IMG/VR virus record: IMGVR_UViG_3300011113_000117
Span: 1 to 28,294 of that record
Length of the DNA stretch: 28,294 bases
Origin: a virus
Direction: 5' to 3' (one strand)
In this document: positions 1,646 through 28,000 of the stretch, one piece after another
Layout: each line of letters opens with the position of its first letter
How positions within the stretch are numbered: the first letter of the stretch is position 1
Program-made: the position numbers and the translations under genes
Notes under the pieces: model-generated
Database searches by the model: none
The model's input: only the letters and a program-made list of their open reading frames with translations
Told to the model about the DNA's origin: nothing

Positions 1646-2949
1646 GCGAACAAACAACTGCGGATGTCATCAAAGACCTGCAAAGCAAACCCCAAGTCCC
1701 AATCAAGGGAAACACATCGGACTTCATCAAGAAGTTTAGCAAAACCCAAGCGGACTCTGGAATGCCCAGCGGAACCAACGTGGGTGATCCTACGCTTGGA
1801 CTTCGCAAAACGGAATCCGACACCGCTGATACATTCAGCGATGATGATTCAGTAATTGATGACGTTATCGGTTCCGATAAAAAACCTGAACTCCCAATTA
1901 GCTCAAACAAAAAGAAGGGTTTTGTTGAAAAACAAATCGAGGAGAATCGGCGTCTTAAAGAAGAGTTGGAGAAATACAAGAAGGAAGAGATTCCGAAGTT
2001 CACAACCAAGATCGAAGAACTTGAGAAGCTGGTTAAGAACTCTGAGTCCACGGCTGAAGCCAACCACTATCAAGAACAACTCAATGCCGCTCGTAAGGAG
2101 AAGTTGGAGCTTGAAAGCAATCTCACTAAGGAGATCGCGGACCTAAAAGGCAAGTTGAGCTTTCACGATCTGGCCAGCAGCCCCGACTTCCAAGAACGCT
2201 ACATCAAGCCAATCCAAGAGAGTTATGTTGCGGCCAAGGAAGTAATCGGAGAAGACCCGGCACTACTCTCGACATTCCAGCGGGCCATTGCCGCAAACGT
2301 GGCGGCATTGTCGGCGGCTTCCCAAGAGGAACGTGCGGCGGCACTCCGCGAGCGCGACGAAGCCTTTGAGGAGATCAGCGGATCGCTTTCCAGCTTTAAG
2401 CAAGTCCGATTCGCCGATCAGGTGGTCGCATACATGAAGGCCACTAACGCCCATTCTGCGGCACTGGCCAACCATGAGCAAACCAAAGCGGAGATTAGTC
2501 GCCAAGCCAAAGAGAAGGAACTTGAGGCCCGCTCCAGCTTCCTCAAGAAGTGGAAGAGTTCCTACGACGAGCAAGACGAGTTTATTTCCAAGGAGGCATT
2601 TATTCCTGACGAGGTGTATTCCTACATGAAGGAGAAGGGCATCAAGTATGACATCAGCGCGGACGAGGCTATCGCGCTCGCTGCGACTCAACAATCAAAC
2701 GAGCCTGCCAGCGTGGATGACATGAACCGCCTGATCGCGCAGGGCAAGCATTTCAAAAAGATGCAGGCCCAAGTCAAGGCTCTGCAAGAAATGGTCAAGG
2801 AGAAGGACGACTACATTAAGAAGCTCAAAGGCTCTTCAAGCGTCACTTCGTCCGGCAATGCAACGGATTCCCAGAAAGCACGACTAAGCGTATCCGAGGG
2901 ACTGAAGGCGAAACTCGCACAGTTTTCGCCACGTAACAGAGCCGCATAG
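1642..2949 (+). CDS. Probable capsid scaffolding protein
   Basis: A 435-residue, very hydrophilic protein directly upstream of the capsid gene. Residues 1-85 are Ser/Asp/Lys-rich and look disordered. Residues about 88-155 form a strong heptad-like coiled coil (many Glu, Lys and Leu). A helical middle follows, then a second charged helix near residues 370-395 and a basic C-terminus ending SPRNRAA. Scaffolding proteins typically combine acidic disorder, long helices and a basic C-terminal tail that contacts capsid subunits, and they sit between portal and capsid genes. No protease motif is visible, so it seems to be a plain scaffold rather than a protease fusion. It starts by ATGA overlap with the preceding gene and is followed at once by a strong terminator. 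One copy of the TATCG palindrome lies inside the gene at 1866. Confidence 0.65.
   Translation: MSEQTTADVIKDLQSKPQVPIKGNTSDFIKKFSKTQADSGMPSGTNVGDPTLGLRKTESDTADTFSDDDSVIDDVIGSDKKPELPISSNKKKGFVEKQIEENRRLKEELEKYKKEEIPKFTTKIEELEKLVKNSESTAEANHYQEQLNAARKEKLELESNLTKEIADLKGKLSFHDLASSPDFQERYIKPIQESYVAAKEVIGEDPALLSTFQRAIAANVAALSAASQEERAAALRERDEAFEEISGSLSSFKQVRFADQVVAYMKATNAHSAALANHEQTKAEISRQAKEKELEARSSFLKKWKSSYDEQDEFISKEAFIPDEVYSYMKEKGIKYDISADEAIALAATQQSNEPASVDDMNRLIAQGKHFKKMQAQVKALQEMVKEKDDYIKKLKGSSSVTSSGNATDSQKARLSVSEGLKAKLAQFSPRNRAA
1866..1879 (+). repeat. TATCG-N4-CGATA palindrome, copy 1
   Basis: TATCGGTTCCGATA; with one more base each side the arms are TTATCGG and CCGATAA around TT. It lies inside the scaffold gene, where it reads V-I-G-S-D. 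The spacer is in the reverse orientation relative to the commonest form (GAAC on the other strand). Confidence 0.8.
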
Positions 2950-2978
2950 CCCTGAGTCGCGCAATACTGGGTGCTAAC

Positions 2979-3024
2979 GGGGGAGGGGGTTTTTCATGTT
3001 TTTACCCCTCCCCCAAACTTTTTT
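2979..3024 (+). terminator. Rho-independent terminator after the scaffold gene
   Basis: A perfect 10-bp G:C-rich stem: GGGGGAGGGG at 2979-2988 pairs with CCCCTCCCCC at 3005-3014. The 16-base loop is T-rich. After three A and one C comes a run of six T (3019-3024). It closes the portal-scaffold unit and insulates it from the promoter that follows. An AT-rich loop this size is a little long, but the stem and T tract make the call firm. Confidence 0.85.
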
Positions 3025-3034
3025 AATAAATCCC

Positions 3035-3062
3035 TTGACACAATACTGGAGATTCTTATTGT
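3035..3062 (+). promoter_or_regulatory. Sigma70-like promoter for the capsid unit
   Basis: A perfect -35 hexamer TTGACA (3035-3040), a 16-base spacer, and the -10-like TATTGT (3057-3062, four of six consensus bases). It lies right after the terminator and about 210 bases before the capsid start. The context CCCTTGACAC is shared exactly with the candidate promoter at 11153. A TATCG palindrome begins 23 bases after the -10, where a repressor could block initiation or early elongation. Confidence 0.55.
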
Positions 3063-3273
3063 GAGTTCAACGGGATAGCCGAAATATCGAATACGATAAA
3101 TTAGGGATTCAGCCGCACCCAGGCTGGCGAGTATCAGAACTCGCATGAAAATCTGTATTCTGGACTGCGGCGAAAGCCGATCTCGGGGTTGACTCCAGCC
3201 GAGGAAACCAAGCACTCGCTCGGCATTCCTCGGAATCGTTGGGCGGGAAACCAAACCTAAACCAACCAATTAA
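3063..3273 (+). other. Structured leader of the capsid mRNA (gene-free)
   Basis: About 210 bases with no convincing gene. It holds the palindrome at 3085 and two hairpins: GCGAGT/ACTCGC (3127-3132 with 3139-3144, six-base loop) and CCGAGGAA/TTCCTCGG (3199-3206 with 3226-3233, 19-base loop). It ends in an A/C-rich stretch (AACCAACCAATTAA) before the capsid ATG, without a Shine-Dalgarno sequence. A 15-codon ATG frame at 3145-3192 exists but has no start signal. A structured leader may stabilise the abundant capsid transcript or control its translation. Confidence 0.5.
3085..3098 (+). repeat. TATCG-N4-CGATA palindrome, copy 2
   Basis: TATCGAATACGATA in the capsid leader, just downstream of the promoter at 3035. 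The arms are perfect; the spacer AATA is the most divergent of the set. Confidence 0.7.
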
Positions 3274-4680
3274 ATGTCAGATCAACTCTACTTCAACTCC
3301 TGTGCTGAGATTGACAGCTTTTTCCGTGAAGGTCGTGAATACTTCAATGATCTCTATGTTAAGAAGCTCGTCACCAACAGCACCTACTTCACTCGCTTCG
3401 ACGAGGAATCATGGCCGCTGAACCACACCACCGAGCAGAAAGCCTTCCGCTTTGGCCGTGGCTTCTACGACCCCTGCACCCCGTTCCGCAAAATCAACGA
3501 CACTTACTGCAACACGGATTCGTGTGACAGCAAGCCCGAAGTCATTGAACGCCCCGGCACGGAGTCCTACACCTTTGAACTCCTGCGCCGCGAGATGACC
3601 ACGGACTGGATTTGCGTGGAAAGCCTTCTCTATCGCCTCTTCCCCGCTGAAGAGATTCTTCAGTTTGAAGAGTCCAACGCCCGCATCACCAAGAACGTCC
3701 ATGAAGAGTTCCTTCGTGCGAACTACATCGGTGGATCGGGACACAAGTGGCTCGGCATCACCAACGACGATGGAATCACCTGCGGGCTTCTCGATGACGC
3801 CTCTTGGTTCGTTGAGCAATACAGCGGTGAAAACGCTGGATACGACCTCTGCCACGTTAAGGTCAAAGTGCCTGTTGCCGATCTCGTCAACATTGCTTAC
3901 CTCTCGCTGGATATGCTCGATGACGCTCTCATCGAACTCCAGAACGAAGACGACGCCTTCCGCATGGACTTGCAAGAAGCCACTGGAATGCCTCTGCTTG
4001 ACATCGTGATCCCCGATCCTCGCGTTGGCCGTTCGCTCTACTTCCAAGCCAAGAAGAACAACGGTTACTGGGATGCAAACACCGACTTCGACGAGCGTTT
4101 GGCTCGCCTCAAGCTCGGCATCAACCGCATCATCGGTGACTACGCCTTCGGCTACGACATCAACAGCACCCGCTTCAACGCTGACTCTGCCTACAACGCC
4201 AGCCTCCCGGCCTTCGACGCCAGCAACCCCGACACTTGGCCCCGCCTCGTTCGTGTTCCTCGCCACAAGAAAGTCTCGGCTGAACAAGGATGCGTGTATA
4301 TCCCGAACCGCGACTACCAAAATGCTGACTTCGCGATCTCGGCTGCGATGATCAACAAAGCGATGTGCAAATGGACAATGCCTTCCTCGACTGGATATGG
4401 CCAAGCCCAGCAAATGACCCAGAACTACGCTGGCGATTGGGATTGGAAAAACCCAGATTGGGAATGCAACCGCTGGCGCAAATCGGGCTTCTATCAGGCC
4501 CAGTTCCGCCTTGCCGCGCAAATCAAAGACCCAACCATCATGCACACCTTCTTGCATCGTATGCCGAAGGCCCGCACGTTGATCGGTTCCTGCTGCCCGC
4601 TGAACGACTACACACCCTCTGCAAGCACTGTGGATTGCTATTCCTGTGCTGGTGTGGGTGACATCGTGATCCCCGGCTAA
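3274..4680 (+). CDS. Probable major capsid protein
   Basis: A 468-residue protein with its own promoter and leader and followed by a strong hairpin, placed right after the scaffold gene. Codons are heavily biased to C-ending forms (CGC, CTC, AAC, ATC), unlike the AT-rich tail genes, which fits a highly expressed protein. Early residues (GREYFNDLYVKKLVTNSTYF) and the mix of long helices with beta segments fit an HK97-like capsid subunit, but I cannot see a diagnostic motif. It is unusually rich in cysteine, including a CC pair and a C-x2-C near the C-terminus (GSCCPLNDY and DCYSCAG) and YCNTDSC near residue 85. No SD precedes the start, only AACCAACCAATTAA. Confidence rests on position, size and expression signals. 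Confidence 0.7.
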   Translation: MSDQLYFNSCAEIDSFFREGREYFNDLYVKKLVTNSTYFTRFDEESWPLNHTTEQKAFRFGRGFYDPCTPFRKINDTYCNTDSCDSKPEVIERPGTESYTFELLRREMTTDWICVESLLYRLFPAEEILQFEESNARITKNVHEEFLRANYIGGSGHKWLGITNDDGITCGLLDDASWFVEQYSGENAGYDLCHVKVKVPVADLVNIAYLSLDMLDDALIELQNEDDAFRMDLQEATGMPLLDIVIPDPRVGRSLYFQAKKNNGYWDANTDFDERLARLKLGINRIIGDYAFGYDINSTRFNADSAYNASLPAFDASNPDTWPRLVRVPRHKKVSAEQGCVYIPNRDYQNADFAISAAMINKAMCKWTMPSSTGYGQAQQMTQNYAGDWDWKNPDWECNRWRKSGFYQAQFRLAAQIKDPTIMHTFLHRMPKARTLIGSCCPLNDYTPSASTVDCYSCAGVGDIVIPG

Positions 4681-4687
4681 TCAACAA

Positions 4688-4713
4688 GGGGGAGGGTCAA
4701 ACGGCCCTCCCCC
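4688..4713 (+). terminator. GC-rich hairpin after the capsid gene
   Basis: Perfect 9-bp stem GGGGGAGGG (4688-4696) with CCCTCCCCC (4705-4713) and an 8-base loop. There is no T tract after it (GCAACCC follows), so it is more likely a partial terminator or a 3' stabiliser that keeps capsid mRNA abundant relative to downstream genes. Its stem nearly matches that of the terminator at 2979. Confidence 0.6.
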
Positions 4714-4743
4714 GCAACCCAAACAACTTACCAACTAAATACT

Positions 4744-5358
4744 ATGTCTAACCGCCGACCACTTGCTTATGATCGTGTGAACCTCTTTGGTCCCACTCCG
4801 ATCAACCTCCTTGCCTCTGGCAATGCCGACCTGCTCGTTCTCAACGACACGGACACAAAGTTCCTTCCAACCAGCATCGTTCTTGAGAACGCCTATGCTC
4901 GCGGAACTACTGCGACTGACCCCGTTGTGATCGTGGACAATGGCACGACTGGCCAAAACGTGACCGCTTCCTTGACCGTTACCGATGCCCTCGATAACAA
5001 AGACAGCTTCAACACGCTTGCCATCGCCGCTAACGCTCCCGTTATTACCGGAACCCGCAAACTCCGCTTGCTCAAATCCACTGTTGGTTTGGGCCAAGCC
5101 ACCACTACCCGCTCCCGCACTTCGGGTGTTGCCACAATCACTACTGCCGCTCCACATGGTTTTACCACGGGCGACCAGATTACGATTGCCAACATGACTG
5201 ATGCGTCCTTCAATGTCGTTGATGCTATTGTGACTGTTGTGAACGCCACAACTTTCACCTATGCAGACGCCGGACCTAATGTTACCTCCGGTGCTGATAC
5301 CGCTGGCCGCGTTGGTGCGCTTCTGGTGAATGCCTACGTTGTGGGCATCTACTACTAA
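4744..5358 (+). CDS. Capsid-associated/decoration-type structural protein
   Basis: A 204-residue, Thr/Ala/Val-rich beta protein with the C-biased codons of the capsid gene just upstream. Residues about 125-175 carry a module common in phage structural proteins: VATITTAAPHGF, then GDQITIANM, then TTFTYADAG. The N-terminal half looks like a beta-sandwich built of polar strands. Its place directly after the capsid gene and the shared codon bias suggest a capsid decoration or head-accessory protein expressed at high level. It could instead be a tail component, since the PHGF module also occurs in tail proteins. The stop codon directly abuts a TATCG palindrome and a hairpin. Confidence 0.55.
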   Translation: MSNRRPLAYDRVNLFGPTPINLLASGNADLLVLNDTDTKFLPTSIVLENAYARGTTATDPVVIVDNGTTGQNVTASLTVTDALDNKDSFNTLAIAANAPVITGTRKLRLLKSTVGLGQATTTRSRTSGVATITTAAPHGFTTGDQITIANMTDASFNVVDAIVTVVNATTFTYADAGPNVTSGADTAGRVGALLVNAYVVGIYY

Positions 5359-5373
5359 TATCGGAAACCGATA
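5359..5373 (+). repeat. TATCG palindrome, copy 3 (5-base spacer)
   Basis: TATCGGAAACCGATA, immediately after a stop codon. It has a five-base rather than four-base spacer between the TATCG and CGATA arms, and longer arms (TATCGG/CCGATA). Confidence 0.7.
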
Positions 5374-5375
5374 AC

Positions 5376-5404
5376 TGAGCGGGAGGCGCAAAATCTCCCG
5401 CTCA
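5376..5404 (+). terminator. Hairpin after the decoration-type gene
   Basis: A perfect 10-bp stem TGAGCGGGAG (5376-5385) with CTCCCGCTCA (5395-5404) and a 9-base loop. There is no T tract, so it is probably an attenuating or mRNA-stabilising hairpin, the third G-rich hairpin in this capsid region. It lies 16 bases before the next start codon. Confidence 0.55.
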
Positions 5405-5420
5405 CAACCAAATCAAAATT

Positions 5421-5609: not shown

Positions 5610-5610
5610 T

Positions 5611-5624
5611 TATCGGACTCGATA
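5611..5624 (+). repeat. TATCG-N4-CGATA palindrome, copy 4
   Basis: TATCGGACTCGATA, filling most of the 21-base gap between the small Cys-Phe gene and the fibre gene, ending 6 bases before that ATG. It occupies the place where a ribosome-binding site would lie. Confidence 0.75.
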
Positions 5625-5630
5625 AATCCT

Positions 5631-6659: not shown

Positions 6660-6665
6660 ACCAAT

Positions 6666-6926: not shown

Positions 6927-6927
6927 A

Positions 6928-8580: not shown

Positions 8581-8753
8581 GCATCCTCAACATCATTCTC
8601 AACCACCTGAAGCAGAAATCAACATGGGCTGGCCTCGGCACAATCCTCGCGCTGGTCGGAATCCAACTCGACCCAGATCAACTCTCGTCCATCGGCGCGG
8701 CAGTCATCGGCCTCATTGGGGTCTATGAAGTGTTCCGTCACGAACAACGATGA
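8577..8753 (+). CDS. Holin-like small membrane protein
   Basis: A 58-residue protein with two hydrophobic segments: STWAGLGTILALVGI near residues 15-29 and SIGAAVIGLIGVYEVF near 38-53, joined by a short acidic turn (DPDQ). It ends with a charged tail (RHEQR). Size, two membrane helices and a place directly before the endolysin candidate, with ATGA overlaps at both ends, fit a holin that makes inner-membrane holes and times lysis. The pattern KSTWAGLG followed by YEVFR is familiar from small phage holins. Between genes there is no spacer, so expression must be coupled to the spanin genes. Confidence 0.65.
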   Translation: MSILNIILNHLKQKSTWAGLGTILALVGIQLDPDQLSSIGAAVIGLIGVYEVFRHEQR

Positions 8754-9286
8754 TCCCAAGCTCCAGACCCCAACAAAAACGAGAAGTCACCGAGAGGTTG
8801 CTTCTTGAGGCTGGCGTTACCGACAAGGTAGCTCTTGTTGGAGTCAGGGGATATTACATGGACAGCATGGGTGAGAAGGACAAGAATGATCGCGGAATCT
8901 ACGACGATGCGATTTTTGTCATAAGCCCAGATTGCTACGTTACCTTTAATGCTAACACTGATCCATCCAGATTCAGAAAAGGTATTGCCACGTTGATTCC
9001 GGGCGTTCACCGCTACCGGAAAGGAAACCACGGGATCAGTCGTGGGCCGGGCTACCCAGCCTTGCGTCCAGCAACCAAGGGAGAAATGCTCCCAGTTACC
9101 AGAGACGTTATCGGAAACGATATGGGTGTAGCAATCAACATCCATAAAGGCGGGCGCGGCACAACCTCAAGCGAAGGATGCCAAACAATCCCCCCCTCCC
9201 AATGGGACGCTTTTATCAATCTTGTCTATGAGCAGATGGATCGCTTCGGACAGAAAACCATACCATACCTACTAACAATCGCGTGA
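8750..9286 (+). CDS. Endolysin candidate with L,D-transpeptidase-like motif
   Basis: A 178-residue soluble protein right after the holin-like gene. Residues 129-150 contain I-N-I-H132-K-G-G followed by T-S-S-E-G-C144-Q-T-I-P. This resembles the His and Ser-x-Gly-Cys catalytic signature of the YkuD (L,D-transpeptidase) fold, in which Cys is the nucleophile. In a lysis cassette it would more likely cut peptidoglycan peptides (a carboxypeptidase/endopeptidase use of the fold) than cross-link them. No amidase, lysozyme or transglycosylase motif is visible and there is no signal peptide, so export would need the holin. It overlaps both neighbours by four bases. A TATCG palindrome lies within it at 9109. 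Confidence 0.6.
   Translation: MIPSSRPQQKREVTERLLLEAGVTDKVALVGVRGYYMDSMGEKDKNDRGIYDDAIFVISPDCYVTFNANTDPSRFRKGIATLIPGVHRYRKGNHGISRGPGYPALRPATKGEMLPVTRDVIGNDMGVAINIHKGGRGTTSSEGCQTIPPSQWDAFINLVYEQMDRFGQKTIPYLLTIA
9109..9122 (+). repeat. TATCG-N4-CGATA palindrome, copy 5
   Basis: TATCGGAAACGATA, the commonest form, inside the endolysin candidate gene, where it reads V-I-G-N-D. Confidence 0.8.
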
Positions 9287-11148
9287 AAAAGAAACAAAGC
9301 TGGAAGTTTATCGAGCATGGTCGAAACGTCCATGAAATCAAAATTACCCTTCCTCACGTAGGGGATGAGCAATGGGTGCTACTGCAAAGCGATGTCCACT
9401 GGGACAACCCGCATTGTGACCGAAAGAAGTTCAAGTCCCACCTTGATCTGGCACTCAAGCGCAACGCCCCCGTAATCGACGTTGGAGACTTCTTTTGCGC
9501 CATGCAAGGCAAGTATGACAAGAGGGCCAGCAAGAATGATATTCGTATGGAACATTGCAAGGGGGATTACTTGGATTCGCTCGTCAACACGGCGGCGGAA
9601 TATCTTGAGCCATACAAGAGCATCCTGACTGTTCGTGGACTCGGGAATCACGAGACATCAATATACAAGCGGCACGAAACCGATCTTTGCGATAGGCTCG
9701 CGGAAAAGCTACGTGCGGCTGGCGGCATTGCGCGTAAGGGTGGATATAGCGGTTATGTGAAAATCAGTCTTTGTCAATACTTCCCATCGTCACATGATTC
9801 CAAAAAGCTCTGGTATTTTCACGGGGCTGGCGGCGGAGGCCCAGTTACTCGCGGCGTGATCCAAACAAACAGGCAATCGGTGTATGTCGGCGATGCGGAC
9901 TTTGTTGTAACGGGGCACTGTTTTGATGATTCAACCGAAATTTTAACTCGCACTGGATGGAAAAAACACACAGAGCTTTCGCTTAATGAAGATGTGATGA
10001 CTTTCAATCGAGAAATACAGCGGATGGAATTTAATAAAATAAACTCAATTCATAGATATGATAACTATAAGGAACTTATTCAAATCAATGGAAGAAGTAT
10101 TGATTTGCAAGTTACCGACAAGCATGGTCTTTGGGTTGCTCCCGTATCTTCTCAAATCAAAAATCCAGTTACAAATGCAACTGAATGGCATTCCGAAACA
10201 GCAGAAGAAGCGTTTGGTAAAAAACTTGTATTTAGGCATTCTGGGATTGAAGATAATGATGGGCTTCCATTAAATGACGATCAGATAGCATTGCTTGCTT
10301 GGATAATGGCAGAAGGGAATATCGAAAAATGTTTAACAATAAGGATTGTTCAAGGCGATGCGAAAGATGGCAGAATTGAGGTTCTTGAGAGAAATCTTGC
10401 TGGTGCAGTCAAGGCTTTTTCAAAAAACCCACATAAAGGCGGCAAGAATACAAAACTTCAAATGTATCGCTACAATGTGCTGAATGGGCCGGAAGAAAGA
10501 AAATGGATTTTCCAATACTTGGATGAATCCAAAACACCAACAAATTTGCTTCGCAGGATGTCAAATTGGCAAAGGCGCATTTTTATTGATACATACATAA
10601 TGGCCGATGGGAGTGTTGATAAAACAAAAAATAGCACAGGATTTCAACTTGCCACAAATAGAAAAGATCATGCTGATTTTCTACAAGAAATCTGTATTAG
10701 ATCGGGATATAGAACGACTACAAGTTGGGGGCGTGACGGCAAAATGATTTACATTCATGCTTGCGAGCGCGAATTTACGATGGTTCAAAAACAAAATTGG
10801 ACTCGTGTTCCATATGCTGGAATTGTATGGTGTGTCTCCGTCGATAATCAAACGCTTGTCGTTAGGCGAAATGGAAAAGTTACAGTAACAATGAACACGC
10901 ACGATTCATTTCAGCTTCCAATCGAGCGCATTAGGCTCAACATGAAAAACGAAATTGAGTTCGCTCGCCAAACGCACATCAAATGTCCGGGCTACAAAGA
11001 AGAATATCGTGATGGATATGCGGGCTGGCACATCGAGCGTGGCGGTCCACCAAAACCAACCGGAGCATGGTGGATACGTTTTGTATTCGCCGGAGACACA
11101 AGAGCAACGAAGAGACAATACGAATACGAAATCATCGAAGCGAAATAA
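9283..11148 (+). CDS. Calcineurin-like metallophosphoesterase split by an intein
   Basis: A 621-residue precursor. The exteins form a metallophosphoesterase: S-D37-V-H39, V-G68-D69, G121-N-H-E, H180 and, across the splice, V-T-G211-H212 joined to T539-H540-D. These are the metal-binding and catalytic motifs of the calcineurin-like family, which hydrolyses phosphomonoesters or diesters (possibly nucleic-acid ends, but the substrate is unknown). The intein occupies residues 213-538, between H212 and T539, so the final GHTH motif exists only after splicing. The mature enzyme would be about 295 residues. The start is GTG, overlapping the endolysin stop (GTGA), which is unusual here but agrees with the coupled layout. 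Having an enzyme in the late structural region, between lysis and tailspike genes, is odd; it may be packaged or act late in infection. Confidence 0.85.
   Translation: MKKKQSWKFIEHGRNVHEIKITLPHVGDEQWVLLQSDVHWDNPHCDRKKFKSHLDLALKRNAPVIDVGDFFCAMQGKYDKRASKNDIRMEHCKGDYLDSLVNTAAEYLEPYKSILTVRGLGNHETSIYKRHETDLCDRLAEKLRAAGGIARKGGYSGYVKISLCQYFPSSHDSKKLWYFHGAGGGGPVTRGVIQTNRQSVYVGDADFVVTGHCFDDSTEILTRTGWKKHTELSLNEDVMTFNREIQRMEFNKINSIHRYDNYKELIQINGRSIDLQVTDKHGLWVAPVSSQIKNPVTNATEWHSETAEEAFGKKLVFRHSGIEDNDGLPLNDDQIALLAWIMAEGNIEKCLTIRIVQGDAKDGRIEVLERNLAGAVKAFSKNPHKGGKNTKLQMYRYNVLNGPEERKWIFQYLDESKTPTNLLRRMSNWQRRIFIDTYIMADGSVDKTKNSTGFQLATNRKDHADFLQEICIRSGYRTTTSWGRDGKMIYIHACEREFTMVQKQNWTRVPYAGIVWCVSVDNQTLVVRRNGKVTVTMNTHDSFQLPIERIRLNMKNEIEFARQTHIKCPGYKEEYRDGYAGWHIERGGPPKPTGAWWIRFVFAGDTRATKRQYEYEIIEAK
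9919..10896 (+). mobile_element. LAGLIDADG intein in the phosphoesterase GHTH motif
   Basis: A 326-residue intein. It begins with C213 in CFDDSTEILTRTGWKKHTEL (block A) and has T278-D-K-H281 (block B TxxH). Two LAGLIDADG-type motifs follow: LLAWIMAEGNI near 337-347 (acidic E344) and FIDTYIMADGSV near 434-445 (acidic D442). Block F/G is IVWCVSVDNQTLVV then VTVTMN, ending in N538, with Thr539 as the downstream nucleophile. The penultimate residue is Met rather than the usual His, as in some atypical inteins. The DNA is clearly AT-richer than the exteins, as expected for a recently acquired homing element. Both endonuclease motifs keep acidic residues, so homing may still be active. Confidence 0.88.
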
Positions 11149-11152
11149 CCCC

Positions 11153-11182
11153 TTGACACCTTAACCAGTATCGGAAACGATA
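11153..11182 (+). promoter_or_regulatory. Candidate promoter overlapped by a palindrome
   Basis: TTGACA at 11153-11158 sits in the same CCCTTGACAC context as the promoter at 3035. No good -10 is visible: at 17 bases the hexamer is AACGAT. The -10 region falls inside the TATCG palindrome (11169-11182). If this is a promoter, a protein bound to the palindrome would block it directly. It would drive the tailspike and downstream tail genes. Confidence 0.4.
11169..11182 (+). repeat. TATCG-N4-CGATA palindrome, copy 6
   Basis: TATCGGAAACGATA in the 42-base gap before the tailspike, ending 8 bases before the ATG and starting 10 bases after a TTGACA hexamer. Confidence 0.8.
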
Positions 11183-11190
11183 AAACCACT

Positions 11191-13179
11191 ATGGCAAGCT
11201 GCAACTGTAACCACGATCCATGCGGAGGCGCACTCAACCAACTCGCCACCCGTTCCGCGCAATACGCTCAATATACCGCTGGCCTCTATGAGGACTTCAA
11301 CCAAAAGTATCTTGGCTCGCGAGATGTGGCCCCAGTTCCAACTCCAGAAAATCCAATTCAAGAAGGCGCGTTGTATTGGAATAGCTCACAGGATAAACTT
11401 TATGTCTGGAACGGATCATCGTGGACTCCAACGATTGATGCCATAGGCGGTCCAATAAATGTCAAAACCTATGGCGCAACAGGAAACGGGACAACTGATG
11501 ATACTGCCGCCATTCAAGCCGCGATCAATGCTGCTCCTTCTGGTGCTGCCATTTATTTTCCAAGTGGGTCGTATCTTGCTGCTAAAATTCTAATCTCAAA
11601 AAGCATAACTATTTTTGGTGATGGAATTGATGTCACAGAATGGGTGTATTCACTAAACACTGGAGTAACTGCTGCGCCTCCATCAGCAGACGCTTACTTT
11701 GTTGTTTCTGGACAAAATACAGAATTTGATATTAGTAATGGAACGATTATTGATAAATTCGGATTGAGATATGTTGGTAATGATGTCATAACAACTGCAA
11801 TCGGATGCGCTGACGCTTACTCAACTAATGTGGCAAGTTTCCCAAAACAAATTAAAGTGTTCAATGTTAAAGTTGTAGATTTTTGGGATGGTATCTGGCT
11901 AAATACAAAAAGACTAATTGTTGAAAATTGTAATTTTGTTCTTACATATGGCAAGGCAAGCATCGGGCAGCCCAAGCCAATAGGCGGCACAATAAGCGGG
12001 CATCCTAATTGCGGAATTTTAAGTGTATACGGTTCATCTATTATTAAAAATAATAAATATGATGGACTGGAAGACTATACATTTTCAAATGCAAATGCAG
12101 GATATTTGCCTTACAGAACAGGCGGAGATGGTTTTGTTTACATTCAATTTAGAGACTGGGCGTTTACTGCATGGAACACAAATTTCGATGGAAAGCATGA
12201 ATGTTCAAATAATGTTATAGTAAACCACTATGTTGAAGGTATTCAGTATAGTTATCCAGCAGTAACAGTCGCTCCGCCAATAACTAATTCTTTAGTAATA
12301 TCAAATAATTCAATTAGATCAACTCAAAAGAATTTTGTAGATGCTTGGAGTTATATGCCATCCATTGCAGTTGTTTTAGGCGATTTCAAGCCAAACATTA
12401 AAATTGTCTCAAATAACATAGAAAACACTCCGATTGGTATAGATGTTAACGCAAATTCTATTGCGGATGGATACGGGAACATTGAAATTTCAAACAATGT
12501 TCTTAATGGTGTTGTGGTTGGAATATCTGTTTCCAAGTTGTCTGAAAAAGATATAATTTCTAACAATACAATTTTCTGTCAAAGCAAACCAAGGAAAAAT
12601 GCGTTGGCCTATGTGAACTCCCAAGGAATTTATGGACCGGACTCATATTCAAGTCTCTTTGGAATCTATGTGATGAACTGCAACCCATTAGTTGTAAATA
12701 ATACACTGGAGGCTGAATATGACTGGGAACTTGTAACTACATTGGTCTCGCAAAACTCAAATGTTTTGACTCTTTCAAGCGTGACAGGAATTGTCCCCGG
12801 ATTCGGATTAACTTTTTTGCTTTCAAACGATGTTAGAGTAATGCCTGTATTAAGTGTTTCAGGAAATAATGTAACAGTCGATCCGGCGTGGCTTGGAGGC
12901 GCAACAATTACTCCGGGAGCAACAGGGTATTATAGCAGAAACGCAACCCCAGCAACAGCCGGAATTGTTGTTGTGAATCAGCAGGCTAATTTGAAACAGA
13001 ACTTTTTTGGAACAACAATCAAGGGATTTTTGAGAGACATGGGGTCTGTTGATTATCCTAATCTGGGCGGTCAAAGCTCAACGCTGCACAACACGACAAC
13101 AATAAACGTCCAACAGCAAACAGCAACAAGGTTTCCCGGCGGTGTTGTCAAAATTGATGGATTCTATTACAAACTATGA
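11191..13179 (+). CDS. Tailspike with pectate-lyase-type beta-helix
   Basis: A 662-residue protein. Residues 1-80 are a virion-binding head: a Cys-rich start (SCNCNHDPCGG), a helical stretch, then YLGSRDVAPVP and the repeat-like block YWNSSQDKLYVWNGSSWTP seen in many phage fibres. From residue about 90, INVKTYGATGNGTTDDTAAI begins a pectate_lyase_3-type right-handed beta-helix, with many Asn-rich turns (SNN, NNT) out to residue about 510. The C-terminal 150 residues form another beta region. Such spikes usually bind and cleave a host surface polysaccharide; catalytic residues cannot be assigned by eye. The body is AT-rich compared with its 5' end, suggesting exchange of the receptor-binding part. 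It is preceded by a palindrome and a possible promoter, and its stop overlaps the next start. Confidence 0.8.
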   Translation: MASCNCNHDPCGGALNQLATRSAQYAQYTAGLYEDFNQKYLGSRDVAPVPTPENPIQEGALYWNSSQDKLYVWNGSSWTPTIDAIGGPINVKTYGATGNGTTDDTAAIQAAINAAPSGAAIYFPSGSYLAAKILISKSITIFGDGIDVTEWVYSLNTGVTAAPPSADAYFVVSGQNTEFDISNGTIIDKFGLRYVGNDVITTAIGCADAYSTNVASFPKQIKVFNVKVVDFWDGIWLNTKRLIVENCNFVLTYGKASIGQPKPIGGTISGHPNCGILSVYGSSIIKNNKYDGLEDYTFSNANAGYLPYRTGGDGFVYIQFRDWAFTAWNTNFDGKHECSNNVIVNHYVEGIQYSYPAVTVAPPITNSLVISNNSIRSTQKNFVDAWSYMPSIAVVLGDFKPNIKIVSNNIENTPIGIDVNANSIADGYGNIEISNNVLNGVVVGISVSKLSEKDIISNNTIFCQSKPRKNALAYVNSQGIYGPDSYSSLFGIYVMNCNPLVVNNTLEAEYDWELVTTLVSQNSNVLTLSSVTGIVPGFGLTFLLSNDVRVMPVLSVSGNNVTVDPAWLGGATITPGATGYYSRNATPATAGIVVVNQQANLKQNFFGTTIKGFLRDMGSVDYPNLGGQSSTLHNTTTINVQQQTATRFPGGVVKIDGFYYKL

Positions 13180-15660: not shown

Positions 15661-17507
15661 TGGCAACAGAAGGATCAGTCTTTGACGGATTTCAAAGTGT
15701 CGTAGCGCAGGATGCAGACACGCATCCTTCATTTCTGCCAGAATACTATGTAGCAGAATCCGTAAATAGAACCTTTCGCGGGGGAGTCAATCGAACCCGG
15801 CCATCAATCCGCTGGTTAGACATTAAGGCCGGAGAAGGGCAGCCCGAGACTATCGTTTCCGATATTCAGAATGGAAACTTCCAAGGCAGCTATCCCTACC
15901 GCCGAACAAAATATGAGGCCAATGATGGATTATTGTTGGCAGTATCGGGAGTGATCTATTTCTTGAGAATCACTGGATCGACTGCATACGCCTACAAGAT
16001 CATTGATGGAAATGATCCCAGCCTAATGCACACTTGGTTCGTGCAGGCGGAGGATCGAGTATATATCCAAAACGGCTATCAGAATGCGATTGCGTGGGGC
16101 GGTGATCTTTCGATCCCAGCCTACCGCCTCAATCCATATGAGGACGAGATGCCGATTGGAACGATCATGGAATATGCGTTCGGGCGGGTGTTCGTATCCG
16201 ACAAGTTCAACAACATCTACGCATCGGACATCATCTACGGAAACGGATTCACGGATACCAAGAACACAGAGAACTTCACGGAGATTCAATACTGGGCGGA
16301 AGGAGGAGCGTTCACGACTCCAGCCAACATGGGCAACATTACAGCCATGAAGGTGATGCCATACATCGGAGGCAACCTTCGTGGCCAAGGTGAGCTTGTG
16401 GTCTTGACTGCAAATGGGGCATTCTCAATGGACGTTAGCCTTCCAAGATCAGAGTGGGCAAACCGCCAGATTCAGCGCATCAGCCTACTTGGCCGTGGAT
16501 GCACCAGCCCATACACGACATTAGCTAACAGCGAGCTTTGGTTTCGCTCGCATGATGGTTGGGCGTTTTACTCAAACAGCCAATCGGAGTTTGGGCGATA
16601 CTTCTCCATGCGGAAGCTATCCCGTGAGGTCAACAAGTGGGTAAGTAGGGACACAAACTGGCTAAAGCAGTTTGCTTCGGCCATGTTCTTCAACAACTAT
16701 CTCATCAGCACCGTGGCTCCAGAAGCGAAGAGAACGAGCGCAAGTGGCTTGAACCGCTATCATCGCGGTATGGTTGTTCTCGACTTGGATCAATCGGCCA
16801 GCCCTGCGCCTGATGCCCAACTTTCATTTCGGTGGAATGGCCTTTGGACAGGGATGCGACCAACGCAACTGGTATCAGCAGTCATCGCTGGTCAGCAACG
16901 AGGTTTCGCATTCAGCTTTGACCAAGACGAAAAGAATCGACTCTATGAAATCACCAATGAGCATGGTGACGATTACGGCCCAAACGGAACAAGCAAGACG
17001 GTGAGTTTCTTTACTACTGGCAGGTATGATTTCTCTCGCTCAGAAGCTACAAATCGCTTTATCCGCAAGCGCATCACTGGCGGCGAAATGTGGTTGTCAG
17101 AAATCGGCGGCGAGGTGACAACCCAAGTAGAGTATCGAGCGGACAGCAACCCATGCTGGAGTGAGCTTAAAGTCCCAACAACATATGGATGCAATCCATG
17201 CTCACCAGTTATCAAGAGTGAGTGTTCCCCGGCCCGTGGTGGCAAGCGGTATAAACGCTATAAGTTCAACTCGCCAGACCCAGAACTCTGCAACGACATT
17301 GCTGGGATTCCAGCAGTGGAGGGAAGTGAGTTTCAAATCAAAGTTTCCTTGACAGGACAGGCTACCATCGACAGAGTTAGGTTAATGGCGAACATCAAGA
17401 ACAACGAAGATTCGCCAGTTGGAGATTGTCCCGAAGAAGAGCAGGAGTGTCCAGAGATAATCTGTTGTCCTGAAAGATATTGGGATTACTCCATCACCAA
17501 AAAATAA
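15660..17507 (+). CDS. Large tail protein, tail tubular protein B-like
   Basis: A 615-residue protein. The start at 15660 (MATEGSVFDGFQ) is chosen for its TAATG overlap; a longer frame upstream is only a shadow of the previous gene. Near the start it has NRTFRGGVNRTRPSIRWLDI, and the body is a series of beta blades (YAYKIIDGNDPSLMHTWFV, NGYQNAIAWGG, FGRVFVSDKFNNIYASD), recalling the beta-propeller nozzle proteins of short-tailed phages (T7 gp12-like). The C-terminal 80 residues are strikingly Cys-rich (CNPCSPV, CPEEEQECPEIICCPERY), perhaps disulphide-stabilised or metal-bound. A smaller partner of adaptor type lies at 18227. The nozzle assignment is structural intuition, not motif proof. Confidence 0.55.
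   Translation: MATEGSVFDGFQSVVAQDADTHPSFLPEYYVAESVNRTFRGGVNRTRPSIRWLDIKAGEGQPETIVSDIQNGNFQGSYPYRRTKYEANDGLLLAVSGVIYFLRITGSTAYAYKIIDGNDPSLMHTWFVQAEDRVYIQNGYQNAIAWGGDLSIPAYRLNPYEDEMPIGTIMEYAFGRVFVSDKFNNIYASDIIYGNGFTDTKNTENFTEIQYWAEGGAFTTPANMGNITAMKVMPYIGGNLRGQGELVVLTANGAFSMDVSLPRSEWANRQIQRISLLGRGCTSPYTTLANSELWFRSHDGWAFYSNSQSEFGRYFSMRKLSREVNKWVSRDTNWLKQFASAMFFNNYLISTVAPEAKRTSASGLNRYHRGMVVLDLDQSASPAPDAQLSFRWNGLWTGMRPTQLVSAVIAGQQRGFAFSFDQDEKNRLYEITNEHGDDYGPNGTSKTVSFFTTGRYDFSRSEATNRFIRKRITGGEMWLSEIGGEVTTQVEYRADSNPCWSELKVPTTYGCNPCSPVIKSECSPARGGKRYKRYKFNSPDPELCNDIAGIPAVEGSEFQIKVSLTGQATIDRVRLMANIKNNEDSPVGDCPEEEQECPEIICCPERYWDYSITKK
15851..15864 (+). repeat. TATCG-N4-CGATA palindrome, copy 7 (reverse form)
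   Basis: TATCGTTTCCGATA, the exact reverse complement of TATCGGAAACGATA, inside the large tail protein gene, reading T-I-V-S-D-I. Confidence 0.8.
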
Positions 17508-18212: not shown

Positions 18213-18226
18213 TATCGGAATCGATA
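18213..18226 (+). repeat. TATCG-N4-CGATA palindrome, copy 8, abutting a start codon
   Basis: TATCGGAATCGATA; its last A is directly followed by the ATG at 18227. It makes up 14 of the 15 bases between the two genes, so there is no room for any other start signal. Confidence 0.8.
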
Positions 18227-19207
18227 ATGGTTGAGACGCTTGAAAGCATGGTTGAGTTGGTCAAGGGCTTTGTCGGAGATTCCGGCAGTTGCTCGTATGA
18301 TCGTGCCGCAAAAGCAATCAACCAAGCGCGGCGACTATTGTGGAACAAGCGCGAGTGGAATGCAACGGCTGAATATGCCTGCATCAAATGCGTGGACGGG
18401 TGCTTCACATTGCCTAATCGCTATGAGCAAATCAAGCTCGCGTGGTTAGACGGCAACCCGGCAAGTCTCGCAGATGAGTGGTTCAACGCCACAGGATTCG
18501 GCCAAGAGTATTACTCTCGCGGATTCCGCGACGAATACTCAGTCCATCGGCTTATCACTGAAGTCGGAGGCAAGCACGTTGTATTCAACGAATACACGCT
18601 TCGTCCGTATCAAATCCTTGCTCTTGGCGAAAGCCAATTAGACGAGGGAGTGAAACTACTTTTCGAGGCGTATGACCAATACGGATCATACAGCAACGTG
18701 AAAGTTCCGATTCAGAACCAATACACAAAGGCCATTGCGCCCGATACGATCGTTGCAATCAGAGCGGTATCGAAGCCGCTTACAAATGGGCGGGTCCGCA
18801 TCTATGCCTACGATCCGGTTATCGACATGAAGTTCCTGATTGCAATTTATCAGGCTGATGACGTGAACCCAACATTCCGTAGATTCCGCATTCCCAAAAA
18901 AGTCGAGTGCATCACGATCTATGCCACCAAGAAATACAAAGACTTGGAGGACAAGAAGGAATTGGTGGAGTTTAGTCCAGATGCCATGATCTATGCAATT
19001 CTTGCGCTTAACTCGCGTGAGAATCGGAAGGCGCAAGAGTTTATCAACAACCTAAACTTGGCTGTGGCTGAAGCAGAGAAAGAGATGGAGGGAGACGAAA
19101 TACCAACAGCGGCCCCGATTCGTTTCGCCAGCGTGAGCCGACCAGAAAATCTTATTGGCGGATACTGGGGCTACCCAAGCAACTCGGATTACTTCCTACG
19201 CCCATGA
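18227..19207 (+). CDS. Head-tail adaptor / tail tubular protein A-like
   Basis: A 326-residue protein. The N-terminal 60 residues are helical with the pattern YDRAAKAINQARRLLWNKRE, typical of ring proteins that dock under the portal (T7 gp11 or P22 gp4 type). The middle is beta-rich (YACIKCVDGCFTLPNRYEQI) and the end is helical with KAQEFINNLNLAVAEAEKEM. Together with the nozzle-like protein upstream this would make the short tail. The start at 18227 abuts a palindrome; an ATG seven codons later is possible but no better. Function is inferred from layout and helix pattern. It ends by ATGA overlap with the next gene. Confidence 0.5.
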   Translation: MVETLESMVELVKGFVGDSGSCSYDRAAKAINQARRLLWNKREWNATAEYACIKCVDGCFTLPNRYEQIKLAWLDGNPASLADEWFNATGFGQEYYSRGFRDEYSVHRLITEVGGKHVVFNEYTLRPYQILALGESQLDEGVKLLFEAYDQYGSYSNVKVPIQNQYTKAIAPDTIVAIRAVSKPLTNGRVRIYAYDPVIDMKFLIAIYQADDVNPTFRRFRIPKKVECITIYATKKYKDLEDKKELVEFSPDAMIYAILALNSRENRKAQEFINNLNLAVAEAEKEMEGDEIPTAAPIRFASVSRPENLIGGYWGYPSNSDYFLRP

Positions 19208-20705: not shown

Positions 20706-20711
20706 AAACCT

Positions 20712-22040: not shown

Positions 22041-22041
22041 C

Positions 22042-25000
22042 ATGGCTCAAAGATTCATTGAATTAACCGAGGAGGAATTGACTGGAATGGAATCTGGAGC
22101 CGCACAAGCTCCATCCACGGGGAAATACATTGAGATGACAGATGAGGAGCTAAATGCTCCATTTGAGCCTGGCATGATCCAACAAGCAGTGGCGATCATG
22201 GGAGGAGCAAGGGGCGATGAGGTTCCAAGAGCCAGTGGATTCTTGGCTCAAGCTCGCGACCTTCCGATCCAAGCCTTCAAGGGTGCGGGAACCGGAGTGC
22301 GTATGCTAACTGACATCTTCGGTGCAAACAATCCCGTCAGCAAGGCGATTGCCGGATACGAGGACACAATGGATGCGATTCTTTCCGCTGAAAGTCGGCA
22401 AGACAGCAAGGAGATGTCACGGATTCTGGATGAGGCTAAAGACAAGGGAACCTACGATCAAGTTATCGCCGGGTTGCAAGCCATCTCCAAAGCTCCGCTT
22501 GAGACTGCTTTCAATGTGGCTGGCATTGCAGTTCCAACACTGGCCGCTGGAGCGGCAGGAAGGGCATTGCAACTTGGCAAGGTTGGCATTACAGCAATAG
22601 GAGCAGGAATTGGGGCATCGCAAGGAGCTGGAAATATCAAAGGTCAAATCTACCAAGGAGTGGTGGACGAACTCCGCAACAGCGGGGAAACGGACGAAGA
22701 GAAGATTCACAATGTCGCATCAGAGGCACAAGCCTATAATGGAAAGAACCTCGACCAGATTTTGATTGGTGCTGGATTGGGTGCTGTTGCCGCATCCACT
22801 GGTGCAGAGAAGGTGCTGAACAGAGTAATCGGTGGAGTTGGTCTCAAGCCAAGTGCGAATATCTTTGCGAACATTCTTAAAGGTGGAATCACCGAAGCGG
22901 TTCCAGAAGGATTCCAAGGTGGGCAGGAACAGCTTGCCCAGAACTTGGCATTGCAGAGGATGGGAAGAGATGTTCCCACGATGCGCGGGGTTGTTTCGCA
23001 AGCCACAATGGAAGCCGCCGCTGGTGCGCCATTGGGAGGTTTTGGCGGGGCCGTGGAATACTATACCGCTCCCAAGCCGCCACCGATCCCCAAACCCCCG
23101 GAAGTTCAAGAGCAAGAAGACATCGAGCGGCAAGCCAATATCGAGGCCAGCAGATTGATGACTCCTACTGGGGATCGCAATTCGGAGGCTGTTCTAAATC
23201 GCATCCAACAGAATGAACAAGCGGTGGAGAATCTGCGCGGATCCTTGTCCACGCTTGAGCCTACATCGCTAGGAGCGGCCAGCCTGCGTATGGAAATCAA
23301 CGCACGGCAAGATGAGTTGGCTACTTTGCGCGACTTGCAGATTCGATTGGGACGAGAGATCGCGCAAGCTACTGGAGTATCGGCTCCGATAATGGAAGCT
23401 CCGATTGCGCCTACCGAACCCGAAACTCCCGTTACACAGCCCACACCTACCGAAGTTCCAGCGGAACCTATTATTGGAGAAATTCCGCAAACTTCTCCAA
23501 TGATAGGTGAACAACCAGCGGAACCTATTATCTCGGAAATTCCAGAAACTTCCGAGTTAGTAGGCGCAGAGCCTATCGCTGTTGTTGAACAAGAACAAGT
23601 TGCTACAGCAGAAGCTCCCGCTATCACGCCTACTCCAGTAGCCGAGACTCCTGCTGTAGCCCCCGCGCCAGAGGTTGCGCCTACTTCATGGGTTGCTCCA
23701 GAGCAAAAACTAACACCTCAAGAAAACAGAGCGTTGCAGGTAGCTAGTCTAAAAGGAACAGAAAAACGAACAGGTAACATTACCTTTGTTCCAGAAAAAC
23801 TAATGACCCCGCAAAGGTTGCAGTCATTAAGAACAGAAAAAGAATCATCTGGCCCATTAAAAGATTTTCCAAGAGGAGGAAAATTTATTGAGATTAAAAT
23901 GATGGCAGATGTGACTGGTGATCCAAATGCAAAAGGATGGGCTATCATTGATCGCAGAATTGATCTTAATAGGAGAGAATGGATTGCTCAAATACCAAAT
24001 CGTGATGAAAGAATTTTGGCTGGAAGTATTGCAAACAAAGAATCAGAAAAGATTGTTTCTGCAATAAAAGATGGAAGCATTACGCAAGAAAGATCAAATC
24101 AACTTGTTGATGAGGCAGTAAATAATCAAATAATCTCATCTGATTTTGCTAATAATTTAAGGACTGCAATCAGTAATTCCACCCCCGCAGTATCGGAAAC
24201 GATAACGCCAGAAAAGATTCTATCTGAACGCGCAATAAGAACAAGAATTGAGGACAACGATCCTGTTCCAGCTAATGCTATTGAAGCATACGGAATCACC
24301 CTCCCCGAAGGATACACCAAGCAAGGTGATCTGTATGTTTACCAGCCAGCCCCACCAATCGCAGAAGCTCCCGCTATCACGCCTACGCCAGTAGCCGAGG
24401 CTCCTGCTGCGTCCGTGCCAAAGGTTGCGCCAGCGATAACTGAACAAGAGGTGGATTCCGAAATCGCAAAAACAAATAGAGAAATAGCAAGCCTTGAATC
24501 GCAAAGAAAGGCAGAGGCTCTAAAGGACACTCCTCGCAAGCAAGTGATCTATGGATTTGATGATAGAATCAAGGAATCAAAGGAAAAGCTAAAGTCTCTT
24601 AATAAACAAAAAGACGCTTTCTATTACGGCAAAATTCAAGAGCAAGAGGTTGGGCTTGAAGATGCGCTGCAAGTTGAAGCGGACAAGATTACTCCGCGAG
24701 ATGCAACTGGCCCACTATCTCAAGCAGAAACAATAACGCTAAATGGTCTTCGTATTGATGAAGAAATGAGCGGAAAGTTAAGCCGCATAAGCCAAATTGC
24801 AAAAGATAGACTTGAAGCCAGAGCAACCGCCCCCACCCCCACAGCAGAAGCCCCCGCTACAAAGGTTGTGCCTACTTTGCCTAAAGCTATAATTCAACAA
24901 CTGCTTAAATCTGGAGTTGAAATTATTCCATCAGGAAACCAATACTCTGGATTTCGTCAATTGGTCATGGAAAAACTTGGTAAGCCTTCTCCAAAATCAA

Positions 25001-28000
25001 AATCTGGAACAAATGCCGTTAAGAAAGAGCTTATACAATATCTTGGTGTAGATACTAATGATACTATTGCTGGAATAGATAATAGCATTAGAAATAAACT
25101 TAAACAAATGTTGGTTAATGAAACCATCACACCCGCGCCAGAGGTTGCGCCTGCTCTTGCGGTGACGGAGCGCCCAAGAATAGAAGCAGAGTCTCCGGCA
25201 ACAACAGAACTGCGAAATAAAATAAAGCAGACAAAGGGACAAGATAGGCGGTCTGTTATTCAACTTGCGATCAATGATAGAAGTTTCTTTCCTGCTGCAA
25301 TTGATGCCGCTGAAACCGGAAAACCGCTGCCAAGTATTGAAAAGGCTTTTGTTCCAGACGATGTTGAGTTGCCGGACAGAATTGACACAACGCGGATAAG
25401 GCTTCCAGAAATTAAAGTTAAGTCACCAGAGGAGGCCGCGAGTCCAATGATTAGTTATGACGATAATCGTTGGGTATTGGGTGGGGTGTATTTTGATTCA
25501 ACAAACAACATGGTTGTGGCAACCGATGGCCGGGCGTTGGTTGCAATCCCTAAAAAAATCACAAAAGATAAGATTATTGCAGCAAGAAATATAAAGGAAA
25601 CAACTTATCAAGAAGCAATTAAAAAAGGTCAACAGATTGATGGAAATTATCCAAACTGGAAAGCTGTAGTTCCAACATATGGAAAAGATATTCCAAAAGT
25701 TGATATTGATATTGATGATGCGCTAAAAGCATCAACAATTCTTGATTCAATAAATAATACTTTTAACAATAAAGTTGGTTCTTCGTTAATTGTTTTTAAT
25801 GGCGCAAAACTTGATCCCAAATATGTTTTATCATCTATTACTGCGCTTGTTGAATCTGGAGCCAAATCAATTACCGCACAAACACTTAGTGAAGCCGATC
25901 CTGTATTACTAACTGGAGATAATGGGGCGATTGCTGTTATTATGCCCAAGCGTGGTAATGAACGCATTTCTCATCCATTAAAATCAAAGGTAGAAATAAA
26001 ACCGGAGATTAAGAAATATAACACTGAAGCACTTCTAAATGCAGCAAAACCATTTTCAGAATACGGATCAAACTATAACCGCAATATAGCCGCATCTTAC
26101 GAGAGGCTTAAAAATGCAATTGATAATGGCTTTTCTGAATCAACAACAGCATCAATTGCTGAAGAACTTGAGATACGACTAAAGAGGTTTCAGCCAGAGG
26201 CACTTGATAAAGCAATACAACAAGTTACCCCATCAGGCATCTCTGTAGGCTCCCGTGTGAAAGGTAAAGGCCCACAGACCTACATCGTAGAAGAAGTGCT
26301 GACACCCAGCCAGAAAGAAGCAGAACTGGGTGAGCAATACTACCGGATTAGGAACGAGCGCACGGGCGAAGTAGGAACATTTGAATCGAAAGATATTAAG
26401 CCAGTCAACGCGAAGGGGATTAGGAAAGTTGCTAAAGACGAATCACTAATAGTCCCAGAGAAAGACCGCTACACCTTTGAAGAAGTGCAAGCGGAAGCCA
26501 ACAAGCTATTCGGCGGGATACCAGAAGGCTTCGTTATTGTTTCCGATACCACGAACCCAGACTACGAGTTCAAAGCGGGATACGACATCGACAATGGCAA
26601 CATCATTGTCAACTTGGCCTACATCAAGAAAGGCGAAAGCGTCCGCAATCTAATCGCACACGAACTCGGTCACTACGCCGCAGGCGATCCAGCTATCCGC
26701 GCACAGCTACAAGCATTCTTGGACGGGCTACCGGCAGAGCAAAGGGCAAAGCTGGAAAGTTTCGTGGATCGAGTTTACAACAAAGATACAGGCGAAGTCC
26801 GCTTAGAAGAGAAGGCGGTCCGCGCATTCGTAGTTATGCTGAAGAAGGGAGACAATCGGAACGTCTTCCAAAAGCTCCTTGATACGATCAAGCGTTGGCT
26901 GAACGAGAAGCTGGGAACGAAATTCCAGATGACCGATATGGATGCGGCGGCAGTCTTGTCCGGTGCGGTTGACAGGTTCCGTAGCGGAGAGAGGATTGCG
27001 CGGCAGGAGGAAGGTGTTCGCAGAGCGGCAGTGGATCGTTATGAGGAGAGAAGCCAAGTCGGAGGAATACCAGGCGTTGGCGCAATCAAGTCCACCCCGG
27101 TTGGAATCAAGGCGAAGACCCGCGATATTGTCCGCACGATGTTCAACTCAGATACCATCTCGCAGGCTAATACCAACCGAGCTTGGAATCTCATCAACCG
27201 ATTTGCGGAAAGGAACCCAGAGTCCCGTGCCAATCTCTCTTCACTCAATCAAATGGTGCGCGAGTCGATGGCCGATGAAGCATCTGAAGAAATTCTGCAA
27301 AGTATCGGTGGTCCCACTCTTCAAAACGAACTTTTCTCCTATGCTATCAAGCTCGCTGGACAGGGTGACAAGAAGATGCTCGATCACTTGTTGGAGAATC
27401 CAATTGTTGTTTCTCAAGGAGGAACAGCCTCCACGATTGGTCGCGACCTTGGTGCATTGGGATCGTTCTCATCGTGGCTTGTGAACGCATCGCAGGCAGA
27501 ACGCTCTGCGACTATTGAGGTGTTGGCATCTCGGCTTTTCAATACCAAGTCCCCAACTCCAGAGCAAATCGCGGCGATCAATACTGTTTTGAATGCGGTG
27601 AAGGACACCAAGATCAACTTGGGTTACGCAATCGAGGAAGAAGTCAAAGAGGTCTCCGAGATTATCGGAACCGATATTGGCGAGAAGATTCAGAGCGAAA
27701 TCGTGGAATCCAATCCCAAGCTCGATCCATTCGCGCAAGCCATGCTCTCCTTGATCCAGCTTCAAGAAGCTGGGGAGGACATTGATTTTACTGTCATGGT
27801 TCCTGCTCGGAAGGAACCCAAGCTCTCAATCAAGATGGAGAAAATGGTGAGAGATGCCTTGGCGAAATACCAATCTAAGATGGGTGCAAAAGGGGCAACG
27901 GGATTGGAGGCCACATTCTGGAAGACGCTATCCAGTCAAGAAGAGGCAGTTGGACCACTTGCCGATTTGGATATGGCCAGCAACCGCAACTTGGCCAAGA

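Follow-up and report, generated by a model that had tools for sequence, protein, structure and literature searches.

Here, a genome-wide network of short palindromes, TATCG-N4-CGATA, was found to be a property of a whole uncultured phage group and not of one contig. It was analyzed starting from a phage contig of 28,294 b, a complete IMG/VR record (the window). The network is kept by selection at the DNA level, and the motif is, as far as testable, phage-specific and not host-wide. We favor the explanation, with a probability of roughly 0.6, that the palindromes are dispersed binding or nucleation sites for a dimeric helix-turn-helix (HTH) protein, most likely the phage-encoded, ParB/Noc-type protein cl15.

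Palindromic sites in the window and across the phage group

The window contains 10 exact copies of the motif, whereas 0.02 were expected; none of 100 shuffled sequences reached 10, and a reversed, uncomplemented control pattern occurred 0 times. Every coordinate given in the original prediction (10 exact copies, one with a 5-base spacer, and one with a single mismatch) was correct, and its claim of an excess over chance held. Five copies are intergenic, as had been claimed: TATCGAATACGATA at 3085 to 3098, at approximately +16 to +30 relative to the start inferred for the capsid promoter; the 5-base-spacer site TATCGGAAACCGATA at 5359 to 5373, immediately 3' of a stop codon; TATCGGACTCGATA at 5611 to 5624, 1 bp past a stop codon and 6 bp ahead of the next ATG; TATCGGAAACGATA at 11169 to 11182, in the junction 5' of a tail-spike-like gene (ATG at 11191); and TATCGGAATCGATA at 18213 to 18226, which occupies the cl5/cl3 junction as far as the ATG at 18227.

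The remaining copies lie inside genes. Site TATCGGTTCCGATA (1866 to 1879) is in a scaffold-like gene (1642 to 2949), and a near-equivalent position is occupied in two relatives (G008 and G012). Site TATCGGAAACGATA recurs at 9109 to 9122, within the cl33 gene (8750 to 9286), and TATCGTTTCCGATA (15851 to 15864) is within the cl1/gp616 gene. The large polyvalent protein gene carries TATCGGCTCCGATA (23378 to 23391), a further TATCGGAAACGATA (24191 to 24204), and TATCGGAACCGATA (27663 to 27676), and the degenerate site TATTGTTTCCGATA (26535 to 26548), with 1 mismatch, has a position-weight matrix (PWM) score of 14.8, where 0.2 sites scoring ≥8 were expected. This gene (22042 to 28293) is cut off by the contig end after encoding >2,084 aa. 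Its product has weak matches of the M48 peptidase and RusA/DNA-polymerase-like kinds, and both the length and the site content of the gene vary greatly among relatives. Elsewhere in the window, the product of 9283 to 11148, a metallophosphoesterase-like protein, has its GHTH motif interrupted by an intein-like insertion (9919 to 10896; C...MN/T, weak LAGLIDADG_3 match).

The capsid protein (3274 to 4680) has 222 relatives in viral contigs. A search of 50,697 phage records for cultured relatives of the capsid, terminase, and cl15 proteins turned up no genuine one. Counting the motif in relatives, as had been proposed, gave 397 copies against 0 for the control in the best 80 of the 222 capsid-relative loci (1.12 Mb). 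An unbiased scan of 5+5 dyads in 19 genomes ranked TATCG-N4-CGATA as by far the most enriched (365 copies compared with 1.5 expected). The spacing was specific, with 365 copies for N4, 11 for N5, 12 for N8, and 0 to 2 for other spacers in these genomes, and isolated half-sites were not enriched. The sequences of 18 genomes, complete or partial, were examined, two of them (G001 and G002) without the last few hundred bases. Most of the group carries 13 to 33 sites in genomes of approximately 50 to 60 kb, a density of about 350 per Mb; in whole related records, the exact N4 copies number 13 to 32. Outside the group, sampled contigs held mostly single copies, and none of six unrelated large contigs with one 14-mer had a second copy. 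Three apparent distant carriers (G329, G330, and G332) proved to be ordinary family members and were rejected as such.

A logo of 340 distinct sites gave the consensus wTTATCG-KWWM-CGATAAw, a dyad of 16 to 18 bp with two-fold symmetry (also written TTATCGKWWMCGATAA; the duplex form of the putative binding site is TTATCGTTAACGATAA). The two central bases are AA/TT or TA, and rarely AT. The spacers GAAA and GAAC noticed initially do occur in either orientation; the preference is now refined to a KWWM rule (TTAA, GAAA, GTAA, TAAA, GTTA, and GAAC), followed in both orientations.

That the phage accumulated sites for a regulator or nucleoid protein of its host is quite unlikely. Only 17 KWWM 16-mers in total were present in 292 Cyanobacteriota genomes, and the core motifs of 12 assorted bacteria had variable spacers and numbered roughly 1 to 5 per Mb, compared with the density of the phage group; perfect 16-mers in the species-genome collection were isolated matches. 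These taxa may not include the host, and several sites lie near sigma70-like promoters, both of which favor a host protein. The comparison with host DNA was made on these proxies, and the lack of enrichment in them disfavors the earlier suggestion of a host signal; a HIP1-like, host-wide palindrome would be expected at high density in host genomes. The only host clue is a group 1 glycosyltransferase (L228:10667-11785 of G005) that shares approximately 70% identity with its counterparts in Synechococcus cyanomyoviruses; the hint of a cyanobacterial host was not borne out by motif enrichment in Cyanobacteriota genomes.

Selection on the sites and their surroundings

Several sites recur at fixed places. 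The site inside DnaB occupies one place in 17/17 genomes, that at nucleotide 191 of the gp616 open reading frame is found with the same codons in 18 genomes, and those in TerL and in the cl5/cl3 junction are each found in 16; the scaffold/major capsid protein and large polyvalent protein/cl12 junctions carry a site in most genomes. Synonymous entropy at the intragenic sites was 0.06 in gp616, 0.0 in DnaB, and 0.25 in TerL, compared with gene means of 0.92 to 0.99, and the DnaB codons are always TTA-TCG-xxA-ACG-ATA. The reading frame differs from gene to gene. Since synonymous codon choice is frozen at these sites, selection acts on the DNA, which bears out the DNA-level conservation originally proposed.

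With a home-made gene caller, so that these values are approximate, intergenic DNA made up 8.8% of the genomes and carried 48% of the sites, many of which extend from 1 bp past a stop codon to 0 to 8 bp short of the next ATG. The gaps between sites were more even than chance (coefficient of variation [CV] of 0.58 versus 0.93). This evenness persisted when the intergenic share was preserved (CV of 0.49 to 0.70 versus about 0.92), with P < 0.03 in 14/16 genomes, P values that are not independent because the genomes are related. In the distant relative G328 (see below), evenness was not significant (P of approximately 0.11).

In the scaffold/capsid gap, an intrinsic-terminator-like hairpin, GGGGGAGGGGG...CCCCTCCCCC-AAAC-TTTTTT (2979 to 3024, plus strand), downstream of the scaffold gene is followed by a sigma70-like promoter, TTGACA-N16-TATTGT (3035 to 3062, plus strand; TTGACA at 3035, TATTGT at 3057), upstream of the major capsid gene and then by the site at 3085, at about +16 from the inferred start. 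The −35 box of this promoter is invariant in 15 aligned genomes. The gap ahead of the cl15 operon is ordered as terminator, site, and promoter, with the site just upstream of the promoter in 16/17 aligned genomes, and in the cl29/cl19 region a site lies approximately 12 bp upstream of the −35 box. Overall, the association with promoters was weak: 22% of intergenic sites were ≤120 bp from a promoter of the TTGAC type, compared with 16% of intergenic positions drawn at random. Thus, a simple promoter-operator model fails to account for the site set and was rejected.

In an extra gene block of five genomes (G002, G003, G008, G010, and G016), many genes are preceded by a site, which frequently lies at the apex of a CAGAC...GTCTG hairpin. 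Repeated CAGACAC...GTCTG leader hairpins stand upstream of several consecutive genes in L209 (G003), at 6.5 to 9 kb of G008, and in G010 and G016; a second small hairpin comes next, and the palindrome is often the hairpin tip. HNH homing-endonuclease-like genes (cluster 48) repeatedly adjoin TATCG sites, as at 23123 and 26043 in G008, 19954 in G009, and 42349 in G010 (genomes oriented by the capsid gene). That the dyads are RNA hairpins, mobile palindromes, or recombination joints instead of a protein-binding DNA site would agree with their ability to form a hairpin, with the way they cap hairpins within the c57-c60 leader elements, and with the neighboring HNH genes. We find this hardly credible, given the two-sided KWWM rule for the central letters in both orientations and the exact positions kept with frozen codons inside DnaB, TerL, and gp616, which also disfavor the recombination joint proposed at first. 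A search of two genomes (G003 and G008) returned no Rfam family.

cl15 as the candidate binder

The most informative relative was G328, a distant genome of 48.8 kb (terminase approximately 25% identical) that is apparently complete because it has a 123-bp terminal repeat. It carries 9 exact sites and 22 PWM sites, compared with 0.7 expected. Profile searches of G328 with the family clusters recovered structural and packaging proteins, an HNH endonuclease, and cl15; the XRE protein (cl30), cl25, and most other small family proteins were not detected. Thus cl15 (326 aa in the family, 226 aa in G328) is the only HTH-type protein detectably common to both, with E values of 1e-20 to 3e-21. Overall identity is 25 to 30%, and the HTH residues SYSTVS...R of the recognition-helix segment are kept. 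Because G328 is a single genome, the argument from a shared protein has one independent data point behind it; the intermediate relative G338 is a partial contig without the cl15 region. The motif is present at all 54 cl15 loci. The cl15 gene is in an early-type operon (G005, 40940 to 41920, 326 aa); the window does not reach it, since the contig ends within the large polyvalent protein gene.

AlphaFold models of the family and G328 proteins (pLDDT of 75.8 and 81.6) are not fully independent, since they share alignment members. For both, the best Foldseek matches were ParB-family DNA-binding domains: the family model matched Noc with a probability of 1.00, the complex of the Noc DNA-binding domain with its binding site (NBS) with 0.87 (TMt of 0.67), and ParB with 0.94, and the G328 model matched Spo0J/ParB with 0.95, Noc with 0.90, and SopB-DNA with 0.60. 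The probabilities were high with E values of about 0.09 to 1.5, never <0.001, and the support is therefore at the fold level only. At that level, the predicted central domain of cl15 resembles the DNA-binding domain of ParB, Noc, and SopB, with a ParB-type HTH fold. Against a profile of 8 chromosomal ParBs, cl15 ranked first of 65 phage clusters (E of 0.0006 to 0.002), with an alignment of 78 collinear columns that spans the HTH and the LSSTEVRNRV/LSVRQTEALV helix, at a low hhalign probability of 13 to 30%. Pfam HTH_ParB (PF17762) matched in 0/9 phages at E ≤ 10, and a sequence search of solved structures with cl15 gave no match. Only the HTH half aligned in the profile comparison, the N-terminal ParB CTPase domain being absent, and the G328 homologue begins approximately 75 residues ahead of the HTH. 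These models and profiles suggest that cl15 may work like a ParB/Noc-type binder, yet it is not filed as ParB. Alternatively, the sites could be bound by a divergent protein that went unrecognised. Elsewhere in G005, L228:12869-13126 encodes a zinc-ribbon protein of the NrdR type (85 aa), which lacks the ATP-cone part and is present in 10 genomes.

The main rival is stoperator-like immunity, in which the repressor of a temperate phage, such as XRE cl30, would act on the sites to halt transcription throughout the prophage. The likeness is partial. The density of sites (13 to 33 in approximately 50 to 60 kb) and their placement in short junctions, many exactly between stop and start codons, resemble the operators/stoperators of L5, as does the site about +16 past the capsid promoter (PMC9283540); an XRE repressor-like gene is present (HTH_3 above the Pfam cutoff), and in G338 a TATCG site is close to the XRE promoter palindrome. 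The original prediction had proposed looking for a phage HTH repressor with a similar operator, but the palindrome of the XRE-type gene is different, TTGAC-N2-GTCAA. At approximately 3720 to 3790 of L226 (G005), the −35 box of the divergent cl29/XRE promoter is embedded in this palindrome, TTGACYTGTCAA, which occurs once per genome among the genomes that include the cl29/XRE locus. The XRE protein was demoted as the binder on account of this single, different palindrome and because its gene was not found in motif-bearing G328. Furthermore, the sites are symmetric with spacers both ways, in contrast to oriented 13-mers (PMC9283540), and classical prophage immunity seems less likely given that no tyrosine integrase was found in 14 genomes and no relatives in a capsid profile search of 84,980 species genomes. 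Overall, we regard stoperator-like immunity as unlikely. No tRNAs were found.

Another HTH-looking protein, cl25, is conserved in 16 genomes, resembles a small terminase, and has sites near its start in several of them, as expected if the dyads were packaging sites. Such a role is very improbable: packaging proteins usually recognise one or a few sites, whereas these are palindromic and genome-wide, and no cl25 homologue was detectable in G328.

Among the alternatives first raised, a nucleoid protein fits better than a stoperator, because a ParB/Noc-like protein is shared with the distant phage and the spacing is even. Under the preferred reading, a dimeric HTH protein, dimeric because the dyad is symmetric, would occupy sites throughout the genome, and cl15 dimers are the predicted occupants. 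The ParB/Noc/SopB fold would take a 16-bp palindrome as two 8-bp half-sites, here TTATCGKW-WMCGATAA; the length and symmetry of the sites fit the 16-bp palindrome expected of the ParB/Noc type, for which binding is predicted. The approximately 20 evenly spread sites would let cl15 nucleate along the whole phage genome. More speculatively, the resulting nucleoprotein might organise or mark the DNA and modulate transcription, as gene junctions, the capsid promoter, and the operon of cl15 itself carry sites. The XRE protein, with its own single operator-like palindrome, could conceivably be a partner, as KorA is for KorB. A fuller version, in which a lytic-looking lineage uses a CTPase-less ParB/Noc-type protein that nucleates at about 20 even sites and coats or marks the entire genome, possibly with a KorA-like XRE partner, is put forward tentatively.

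Comparison with known systems

Genome-wide, sequence-specific networks with a ParB/Noc-type protein are already known for chromosomes and some plasmids. If the preferred reading is true, such a network is built into a phage group of approximately 50-kb genomes, with a stringency that fixes codon choice in genes for replication and packaging. It would then offer a compact system in which to ask why a virus needs nucleoid-type marks, whether for gene timing, protection, replication, or self-recognition. In addition, the dyad is a simple motif for recognising contigs of this uncultured group.

In Bacillus subtilis, Noc has a ParB-type DNA-binding domain, and its NBS are palindromes of approximately 16 bp scattered over the genome (PMC4331003, PMC7383237); parS and NBS are both 16-bp palindromes (PMC7383237). 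The half-sites are TGTTTCAC-GTGAAACA for parS, TATTTCCC-GGGAAATA for NBS, and TTATCGKW-WMCGATAA for the phage dyad. The phage network is like that of Noc in its dispersed palindromes of approximately 16 bp and in the predicted resemblance of the cl15 models to the Noc DNA-binding domain. It differs in lying on a phage genome, in sequence, in the lack of the N-terminal ParB/Noc CTPase domain in cl15, in having no known link to cell division, and in density, with approximately 350 sites per Mb versus approximately 70 NBS per chromosome.

The prophage-plasmid N15 has SopB inverted-repeat sites, IR1-4 (PMC7205306), and is comparable in combining a ParB-type protein, a predicted role for cl15, with inverted-repeat sites on a phage genome. 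N15 has four sites and the ParA-type SopA, whereas here there are 13 to 33 sites and no ParA-type family among the best 25 of the 33 Pfam families listed for the 57 proteins of G005.

Cluster A mycobacteriophages of the L5 type are temperate and carry >20 stoperators per genome of approximately 50 kb, asymmetric 13-mers oriented with transcription and bound by a monomeric immunity repressor (PMC9283540). The load here is on the same scale (13 to 33 per approximately 50-kb genome), with many sites in short junctions, but the phage dyads are two-fold symmetric, unlike these oriented 13-mers.

Plasmid RK2 encodes the ParB-family protein KorB, with 12 dispersed operators (OB) of approximately 16 bp, and KorA, a small repressor that has a separate promoter operator of 12 bp (PMC11790492). 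KorB acts as a CTPase clamp, whereas cl15 is without that domain, and the phage network extends into genes, where its sites fall on conserved codons. By analogy, the phage group may be likened to KorB/KorA in pairing dispersed sites with an XRE gene that has its own single operator-like palindrome.
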